Source: Rikenellaceae bacterium (GTDB taxonomy: Bacteria; Bacteroidota; Bacteroidia; Bacteroidales; Rikenellaceae). From it: a stretch of 64,000 nucleotides of DNA. The stretch covers positions 1 to 64,000 of the forward strand of contig SUZC01000002.1 in assembly GCA_015060165.1 (NCBI GenBank), read 5' to 3'. A program made the translations under genes and the position numbers. This document shows, piece after piece, positions 31,794 to 34,340 of this stretch. A model generated the notes under the pieces. The model did no database searches, was not told the origin of the DNA, and saw only the letters and a list, made by a program, of their open reading frames with translations. How positions within the stretch are numbered: the first letter of the stretch is position 1; each line of letters starts with the position of its first letter.

Positions 31794-31866
31794 TTTTTGG
31801 GCCGACTAGTGTCGAAAAATGTGCTAAACGACTCAACAAGAGAGAAGTTTTTGTATATTTGTCATT

Positions 31867-33066
31867 GTGAAACTTATTCAGTTAATAAAATATCTGGCGA
31901 GTGCCGATTTCTCATTTCGCGTCAAACGTTGGTTGTGGCGTCGTGCATCGCGAAGTGCGATAGGGCGTTATATGCTCCATCAGCGCTTTGGAGTGCCTGC
32001 TGCGAACCTACATCGCGACGTGTTTGGAATGCACTTTTTCTCGCCCATAGGATTGGCCGCAGGATTCGATCGTGATGGTGAGATGATAGATGCCATGGCA
32101 GCAGCAGGATTCGGATTTGTCGAGATAGGGCCTGTTACTCCCAAACCACAGCATACTCCTGAAAAGAGCGGTGATTTGCTCCTGCTCAAAGGCGACCGTG
32201 CTTTGATTTATCGTGCCGACATCGAGAGCGCTGGTGTGGAGCAGGTTATTGAAAATGTTAAGCAGCGTAGTAGTCGAATAGTGGTGGGATGTAATATCGC
32301 CAAGGGAAGTAAAACAGATTGTGAAGGTGCCCCAAAAGATTATTTGCGTCTGTTCCGCCCATTATATCAGTATGTCGATTACTTTACGGTCAATGTGTGT
32401 TGCAATACCACACCTGAGCCGTATGTGCCTACCTCAAAGCAGGAATTGATGGACATCCTAGTTCCATTGTTTGATTTCCGACGTGGTCAGAATCAGTATC
32501 GTCCTATTTTATTGAAGATTTCGCCCGATTTGAGTGATGAGCAGATTGATTTGATGACCGATATTATGATTGATACTCCGCTCGATGGTATTGTAGCTTG
32601 TGGAGGCACTATCGGTCGTCATTCGCTGTCGAAGTCTACCGAGCAGATGCGCTCGATTGGCCGTACTCACGGTGCGATGTGTGGTCGACCTTTGAAAAAC
32701 AGAGCCATCGAGGTTGTGAAGCGAATCTATTCACGTTCGAAGGGTACTTATCCCATCATCGGTTGTGGAGGAGTGTCTACGCCCGATGATGCTATGCAAA
32801 TGTTGCAGGCGGGAGCTACGTTGGTTCAGATTGGAAGTGAGTTTATCTATGGCGGGGGAGCTTCGCTACGCAATATGCAGTTGGGGCTTGATGAGCGTAT
32901 CCGTAAGGCCGAGCAGCGTACTGCAGCTGAGAGTTCGGATGCGACCTTAACGTCAGGCGCAGCTAAGAGTTGTGATGTCGTGGCCTCTGATGCACCAACG
33001 ACATCTGATGCCGCAACAGAATCAGGAACTCCTCCTGCTGTAAATTCTAATAATTCAGCCCAGTAA
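31867..33066 (+). CDS. Dihydroorotate dehydrogenase-like (PyrD class 2 fold) flavoprotein with divergent active-site motifs and low-complexity tail
   Basis: FMN-barrel motifs IGLAAGFDRDGEMID, GFVEIGPVTPKPQ, LLKISPDLSDEQ, PIIGCGGVSTPDDAMQMLQAGATLVQIGSEFIYGG. Usual NRMGFNN, NVSSPNT, NTT and GGLSG motifs are replaced. Confidence 0.8.
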   Translation: MKLIQLIKYLASADFSFRVKRWLWRRASRSAIGRYMLHQRFGVPAANLHRDVFGMHFFSPIGLAAGFDRDGEMIDAMAAAGFGFVEIGPVTPKPQHTPEKSGDLLLLKGDRALIYRADIESAGVEQVIENVKQRSSRIVVGCNIAKGSKTDCEGAPKDYLRLFRPLYQYVDYFTVNVCCNTTPEPYVPTSKQELMDILVPLFDFRRGQNQYRPILLKISPDLSDEQIDLMTDIMIDTPLDGIVACGGTIGRHSLSKSTEQMRSIGRTHGAMCGRPLKNRAIEVVKRIYSRSKGTYPIIGCGGVSTPDDAMQMLQAGATLVQIGSEFIYGGGASLRNMQLGLDERIRKAEQRTAAESSDATLTSGAAKSCDVVASDAPTTSDAATESGTPPAVNSNNSAQ

Positions 33067-33077
33067 AACATAGAGCA

Positions 33078-34340
33078 ATGATTAAAGCTGCAATCGTAAC
33101 TATAGGCGATGAGATTCTCATCGGCCAAATTGTCGATACCAATTCAGTTAGCATATCCAAACATCTTAATTCTGCGGGTATAACCGTTGTCGAGAAACTT
33201 TCGATAGGTGATAGTGCCGAGCAGATAACCGATACTTTGCATCGTGTCATGGAGATTTCCGATGTGGTAATAATTACGGGTGGCTTGGGACCTACTAAAG
33301 ATGATATCACCAAATTTACTCTTGCAAAGATATTTTCTTCATCAATGCACGAGGATAGCCGTGTGGCCGAGCACGTTCGTCGAATGCTTGCTGCGCGAGG
33401 TATTGAGTATAACGAATTGAATCGTTCACAAGCTATGGTTCCTGATTGCTGTGAGGTGTTGTTCAATGCTCACGGCACAGCTCCTGGAATGTTGTTTGTG
33501 GGCGAGAAGGGGCAGATTGTGGTGTCGCTTCCGGGTGTACCTTTCGAGATGGAACACTTGATGAGTGAGGAGGTTATGCCTCGACTACGGGAGCGTTTGT
33601 CGCTACACGCCAATATCCATCGCACGATGATTACAGCCGGTGTTGCGGAGTCGATCTTGGCCGAGCGTATATCGGAGTGGGAGGATTCTCTTCCTGCGAG
33701 TATTAAATTGGCGTATTTGCCAGCTCCGAATGTGGTGCGATTGCGTCTGTCGGCATACGATGTGGAGGATGAGGCTGAGATGCGTCAAACGATAGATGCC
33801 CTCTTTGATAAACTCTATAAAATAATCCCCGATAATATTGTTGGTTTTGAGAACGCATCGATGCAGGAGTTAGTCCATAATATCATGTGTGATAAGGAGT
33901 TAACGCTTGCTACTGCGGAGAGTTGTACAGGGGGTACCATTGCATCACGATTTACCGCAATGGCGGGGGCTTCGGCCTACTTCAAATGTGGTGTGGTGGC
34001 CTATGCCAACGAAGCGAAGCGCGATGTGCTGGGTGTGAACTACGAGGATATTATGCGCTACGGAGCAGTAAGCGAGCAAGTGGCTCGTCAGATGGCAGAA
34101 GGGGCTCGTCGTGTGGGCGAGGCCGATTATGCTATAGCTACCACAGGCATTGCAGGCCCAACAGGTGGCTCTGCAGAGAAACCTGTGGGTACGGTGTGGA
34201 TTGCTGTCGCAACACCTACACATACGGTGGCAGTGATGAGAAATTGCGGAACAGACCGTGGCCAGATTGTAAATCGTGCATCGGCCTATGCAATAGAAAT
34301 GCTCTATAAGGAGCTGAAAAATAGCCTTGCCATAGGGTAA
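33078..34340 (+). CDS. cinA: CinA family protein (competence/damage-inducible, NMN deamidase type)
   Basis: AAIVTIGDEILIGQIVDTNS, ITGGLGPTKDDITK, LATAESCTGG, TGIAGPTGG. Confidence 0.95.
   Translation: MIKAAIVTIGDEILIGQIVDTNSVSISKHLNSAGITVVEKLSIGDSAEQITDTLHRVMEISDVVIITGGLGPTKDDITKFTLAKIFSSSMHEDSRVAEHVRRMLAARGIEYNELNRSQAMVPDCCEVLFNAHGTAPGMLFVGEKGQIVVSLPGVPFEMEHLMSEEVMPRLRERLSLHANIHRTMITAGVAESILAERISEWEDSLPASIKLAYLPAPNVVRLRLSAYDVEDEAEMRQTIDALFDKLYKIIPDNIVGFENASMQELVHNIMCDKELTLATAESCTGGTIASRFTAMAGASAYFKCGVVAYANEAKRDVLGVNYEDIMRYGAVSEQVARQMAEGARRVGEADYAIATTGIAGPTGGSAEKPVGTVWIAVATPTHTVAVMRNCGTDRGQIVNRASAYAIEMLYKELKNSLAIG

Follow-up and report, generated by a model that had tools for sequence, protein, structure and literature searches.

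A class 2 dihydroorotate dehydrogenase homologue displaced by a class 1B enzyme in Alistipes and probably kept for another task

We analyzed a gene at positions 31,867 to 33,066 of a window of 64,000 nucleotides, the whole stretch of DNA examined here, from a Rikenellaceae bacterium (assembly GCA_015060165.1, contig SUZC01000002.1, forward strand). Its product looks like a class 2 dihydroorotate dehydrogenase (DHODH, PyrD) but, judged by its residues, is very probably not a DHODH. The best explanation, to which we give a probability of about 0.78, is that the product was displaced, is no longer a DHODH and has been kept for another task. The orotate pocket is replaced, the predicted fold and most of the FMN contacts are retained, and the gene evolves under purifying selection. 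The protein would still bind FMN and probably does a different job, and to name its new reaction is at present to guess.

The product matched the Pfam family DHO_dh (6.7e-50) and passed the NCBIfam class 2 models TIGR01036 (237 bits, cut-off 200) and NF003652 (281 bits, cut-off 267), but it stayed below the cut-off of the class 1B model NF005574 (58 bits versus 269). Because the class 2 cut-offs are still passed, databases would name it a quinone-dependent DHODH, and there the gene is almost certainly mislabelled. The AlphaFold model of the 399-residue protein (mean pLDDT 92) showed a confident barrel and N-terminal helices (within residues 2-41); all 50 Foldseek neighbours listed for it were class 2 DHODHs, with a TM score of 0.85 to E. 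coli 1f76, and the nearest solved structures were also class 2 enzymes. The GTG start aligns with the first Met of the relatives. Upstream, TATATTTG at 31854-31861 fits the Bacteroidetes TAnnTTTG −7 element and ends 5 bases 5' of the GTG; the same spacing is found in L113, a relative with 82% identity, so the mRNA may be leaderless, although the motif had no common position upstream of the gene across the subclade. The features are as follows.

31867..33066, + strand: remodelled homologue of class 2 PyrD (399 aa; GTG start codon; stop codon within the range)
31867..32010, + strand: N-terminal helices (residues 1-48), where class 2 enzymes have the quinone-tunnel domain; ExxH missing
32053..32079, + strand: LAAGFDRDG; FMN contacts A62-G63 kept, orotate/catalytic Lys66 replaced by Arg69
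32122..32148, + strand: EIGPVTPKP; FMN contact Thr86 replaced by Pro89
32206..32229, + strand: IYRADIES, aligned in place of INRMGFNN (substrate loop 111-115)
32287..32307, + strand: GCNIAKG; FMN contact Asn139 kept as Asn143
32389..32421, + strand: VNVCCNTTPEP in place of VNVSCPNVxxx; Asn172 and the base-position Cys kept, Pro176 and Asn177 replaced
32512..32532, + strand: LKISPDL; FMN contact Lys217 kept, invariant in every group
32596..32619, + strand: ACGGTIGR in place of ATNTT; Thr245, Asn246 and Thr247 lost
32671..32694, + strand: GAMCGRPL in place of GGLSGxPL; FMN contact Gly268 kept
32761..32781, + strand: GCGGVST; FMN phosphate contact Gly297 kept, Cys at 295 specific to the subclade
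32827..32844, + strand: QIGSEF; Tyr318 replaced by Gly and Gly320 by Glu (9/9 of the subclade), Ser319 kept
32920..33063, + strand: low-complexity Ser/Ala/Thr tail (residues 352-399, about 48), of differing length among relatives
33078..34340, + strand: cinA, downstream neighbour of class 2 pyrD, conserved in canonical and remodelled genomes

The tail is also long in a canonical relative (G041) and is thus unconnected to the remodelling.

E. coli positions were assigned to the protein by alignment, and we take the residue roles to be those given to the E. coli PyrD contacts in annotation of the family (E. coli numbering). The sequence-only reading had quoted IYRADIES, NVCCNTTPEP, ACGGT and GAMCG, all of which are in the frame, and had argued that a pocket changed at several sites is not a chance event. 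This was borne out: 33 of the 107 positions conserved in at least 95% of canonical relatives are altered, including eight of the ten substrate contacts tested (K66R, N111Y, M113A, G114D, F115I, N177T, N246G and T247G). Among the orotate contacts K66, N111-F115, N172, N177, N246 and T247, only R112 and N172 are retained, so that the Asn residues said to be mostly changed are indeed replaced at 111, 177 and 246 but not at 172. Lys66, present in 36/36 canonical copies, is R or T in 9/9 members of the subclade to which the gene belongs. The FMN contacts A62, G63, N139, N172, K217, G268, G297 and S319 are kept, and T86P, T245C and Y318G are altered. The FMN-barrel signatures had been called intact, which is not true of GLAAGFDRDG (K66R), EIGPVTP (T86P) or QIGSEF (Y318G and G320E). 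On the quinone side R99D, R102L and Y318G are found, and the ExxH of the N-terminal helices, present in 36/36 canonical copies and 46/48 other Alistipes copies, is carried by 0/9 of the subclade.

The Ser/Cys base context had also been listed as changed. The flanking Pro176 and Asn177 are gone, but Cys179, which aligns with position 175, is not a replacement, because all 36 canonical Rikenellaceae class 2 enzymes read NVSCPNV there and Cys is the local canonical residue, as is R112. Two genomes of the same order outside these 36 (G198 and G278) carry Ser at this position, and class 2 DHODH has been described as Ser-based (PMC10395836, table 1). Within the subclade, position 175 is C, D or L (Asp or Leu in 5/9 members). 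In a class 1A DHODH, K45A and C132A, the equivalents of Lys66 and the base, each abolish the enzyme in vivo (PMC10395836).

When the assembly (2.19 Mb, 91% complete) was searched with PF01180, two genes were found, the present one and another, on contig C18, that encodes a class 1B enzyme and lies in the order carB-pyrK-pyrDB with pyrE and pyrB within a few kb. This PyrDB is canonical (NVSCPN, GGFSG, adjacent pyrK and carB). The gene is thus not the only pyrD-like gene of its genome, and the refutation that the sequence-only reading had proposed for itself does not apply. To see how the two enzymes are distributed we surveyed 150 Rikenellaceae genomes, 137 of which had a homologue, and aligned 103 homologues; those close relatives that have names belong to Tidjanibacter and to Alistipes, and many of the Alistipes species come from the guts of ruminants and deer. 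Within the family, class 1B was confined to the genera g1 and g20, which we take to be Alistipes and Tidjanibacter. A full canonical pocket was kept in 36 of the 103 copies, in genomes that all lack class 1B (0/36), and the other 67 copies, from the two lineages Alistipes and Tidjanibacter, had a rewritten pocket, class 1B being present in the genome for 66 of them. Within g1, three genomes (G104, G108 and G121) are without class 1B and retain an unaltered pocket. The class 1B/PyrK pair has displaced the class 2 enzyme and now makes orotate in Alistipes. Since the pocket change follows the second DHODH almost perfectly, the idea of a lineage-specific remodelled DHODH, the other half of the earlier inference, is disfavoured.

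The sole exception, G138, has a rewritten copy and no class 1B in a draft assembly 93% complete. We searched it for pyrK and carB and found neither (the carB query had no positive control), so the whole carB-pyrK-pyrDB block is absent from this assembly, and we set G138 aside as a counter-example. Seven genomes with two PF01180 matches and a canonical pocket were likewise not counted as exceptions, as the class 1B model limits class 1B to the two genera; in one of the seven, G049, the second match is L083. Of the sampled g1 genomes only two are without the gene, which is nearly always an open frame; judged from these sequences, a displaced, remodelled class 2 DHODH appears common to nearly all sampled Alistipes genomes. 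Six g20 (Tidjanibacter-like) genomes, 98-99% complete, encode class 1B but lack any class 2-like gene, which shows that the remodelled gene can be dispensed with there.

In the majority of genomes of both kinds, canonical and remodelled, cinA lies directly 3' of the gene. Because the gene occupies the place beside cinA that class 2 pyrD has in the sister genera, it is a displaced ortholog and not an extra copy; it is the usual class 2 pyrD of the family, still in its ancestral position, the working DHODH being of another class at another locus. The proposed mis-annotated paralog with a new role is therefore well supported as to the new role and the mis-annotation (class 1B present, cut-offs passed), but "paralog" is imprecise. 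We considered cinA as a functional clue and rejected it, since it adjoins canonical pyrD as well and hence tells of ancestry, not function. A cinA tree and a PyrD tree from which the pocket columns were left out each require the pocket state to have changed twice, once for the main Alistipes clade and once for Tidjanibacter, and the subclade of the gene forms one well-supported group within Alistipes. As only two independent changes underlie the pattern, the figure of 66/67 overstates its statistical weight. In both lineages V170, two residues before the conserved Asn172, has become Thr or Ser (61/67 remodelled copies, 0/36 canonical), which may reflect convergence or else point back to one older origin.

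The loss is concentrated at the substrate contacts. Over the 107 positions, the canonical residue is kept at 11% of substrate contacts in the subclade of the gene, 41% in other Alistipes and 30% in Tidjanibacter, compared with 86%, 94% and 99% for FMN contacts and 74%, 86% and 76% for other invariant sites. In 20000 random draws of positions, no set reached a value as low as that of the substrate contacts, a comparison that treats positions as independent and leaves shared ancestry uncorrected. Among the closest remodelled pairs listed, dN/dS was 0.03-0.28 and below 0.17 in all but one, against 0.01-0.16 among the canonical pairs listed, many of the dS values being near saturation; between the gene and L113, dN was 0.12 and dS 2.1. 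Low dN/dS together with the loss of substrate contacts indicates a constraint on the protein that does not extend to the orotate site. On this evidence, the ancestral quinone-dependent class 2 DHODH was displaced by the orotate-making class 1B enzyme of the carB-pyrK-pyrDB block; relieved of its orotate duty, the old gene would have lost the Lys and Asn residues that held orotate and, in the subclade, the N-terminal quinone signature too, with the FMN-carrying barrel retained under strong purifying selection. The product would then most likely be an FMN oxidoreductase acting on another small molecule with a different electron partner.

That the re-shaped pocket takes a new substrate is, as a step by itself, somewhat short of an even bet. 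We favour it slightly because close relatives agree in their new pocket residues and certain replacements are seen repeatedly: the protein and L113 match at all ten substrate positions, the subclade-specific residues C295 and E320 are fixed, and the change of V170 in two lineages suggests a new constraint near the flavin. The same observations weigh against a pseudoenzyme, folded and perhaps FMN-bound yet without any catalytic activity, serving as a structural or regulatory partner that binds, for example, PyrDB/PyrK or another protein; catalytically dead paralogs are known to act as activators (PMC3663545). This explanation is in play because the pocket residues differ widely between subclades, and we regard it as a serious, if tentative, competitor. 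In every remodelled group the substrate contacts evolve faster than the rest (identity 0.37-0.50 versus 0.61-0.65), Lys66 is replaced by R, P, C, T, H, N, S or V across the remodelled copies, and the gene is missing from the six nearly complete Tidjanibacter-like genomes. Between Alistipes subclades the pocket identity is 0.50 versus 0.61 for the rest, and this variation argues against one new substrate shared by all. T86P and Y318G, which fall on FMN contacts, also count against the favoured explanation.

The remaining explanations are all improbable. A dihydropyrimidine (dihydrouracil/dihydrothymine) oxidase has a direct precedent in fungi, where class 1A DHODH-like proteins of this kind occur alongside a genuine DHODH (PMC10395836), and by our own reasoning the loss of Lys66 and Asn111 could fit a substrate without a carboxylate; but the fungal enzymes keep the SCPNV motif and rely on its Cys (PMC10395836), while Pro176, Asn177, Asn246 and Thr247, which hold the pyrimidine ring, are gone here, so this is a long shot. 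Slightly less probable still is a lineage-specific enzyme that is still a DHODH with other residues holding orotate. It would account for the retained N172, base-position Cys and K217, for the class 2 HMM scores and for the predicted class 2 fold, but not for the replacement of Lys66, Asn111, Asn177, Asn246 and Thr247, the Asp or Leu at the base in five of the nine subclade members, or the pocket change that tracks another, complete DHODH in the genome. A functionless, decaying relic is the least probable of all. Redundancy with class 1B and loss from some genomes would suit decay, but the near-universal open frame in g1 and a dN/dS mostly around 0.1, close to that of canonical copies, do not.

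At the level of the order we surveyed 247 genomes with a completeness of at least 90%, using a threshold of E 1e-30 or better for class 2-like matches. Class 1B was present in 146 and a class 2-like match in 90, and co-occurrence was rare: five genomes (G000, G203, G220, G258 and G378) had both as separate genes. G320 was discarded, as its class 2 match is its class 1B gene. The class 2 proteins of G000, G203, G220 and G258 scored 209-257 bits on the class 2 model, compared with 331-433 for the other full-length matches. Those of G203, G220 and G258 are a different variant, in which Lys66 is kept, the base loop is deleted or unalignable and Asn246 is replaced. This second variant (L159, L160, L161 and L083) has a K(I/L/V)PAD motif and A.GP(T/S) for ATNTT; it was seen beside class 1B in G203, G258 and G220, and in G049 (L083) it coexists with a canonical class 2 gene. 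The draft genome G378 has both enzymes with apparently intact pockets (L162 and L163), the only such case seen, so the exclusion between the classes is near but not absolute. That class 1B takeover in the order has repeatedly led to recruitment of the class 2 enzyme as a new non-orotate FMN family, found in nearly all Alistipes species, is a conjecture we would not yet bet on.

The displacement is a clear example, provided by nature, of how an essential enzyme can be ousted and still be retained for another use; the sister genera and the three genomes of the same genus group, which retain the unaltered enzyme, are its natural controls. Automatic annotation is implied to report two DHODHs in Alistipes, of which probably one is real, and this would misdirect metabolic models and claims about inhibitor targets. 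The remodelled copies are a ready set for seeking a new function of the DHODH barrel and, if the proposal is true, a recruited FMN enzyme family that has gone unseen because its members are annotated as PyrD. Our literature search, mostly outside subscription papers, found no account of this displacement or of an Alistipes DHODH, which is weak evidence of novelty.

Compared with known systems, the protein shares with class 2 DHODH (E. coli 1f76, human 1d3g) the barrel fold, as predicted, most FMN contacts, HMM scores above cut-off and, within the family, the place beside cinA, but differs in the replacement of K66, N111, M113-F115, N177, N246 and T247 and in the loss of the quinone-side R99, R102 and Y318 and the N-terminal ExxH. 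Class 1B PyrDB/PyrK (NF005574) does, in the same genome, the step once done by the ancestor of the gene, but it is of another class and at another locus (C18) with an intact pocket, and the gene adjoins cinA, not pyrK. The nearest precedent is that of the fungal dihydrouracil oxidases, class 1A DHODH-like flavoproteins that live next to a genuine DHODH and have themselves been wrongly assigned as DHODH (PMC10395836). They share the feature of a DHODH-family look-alike next to the true enzyme; they are, however, class 1A-like and keep the SCPNV active site, whereas the protein described here is derived from class 2, has CCNTT instead and carries a rewritten pocket.
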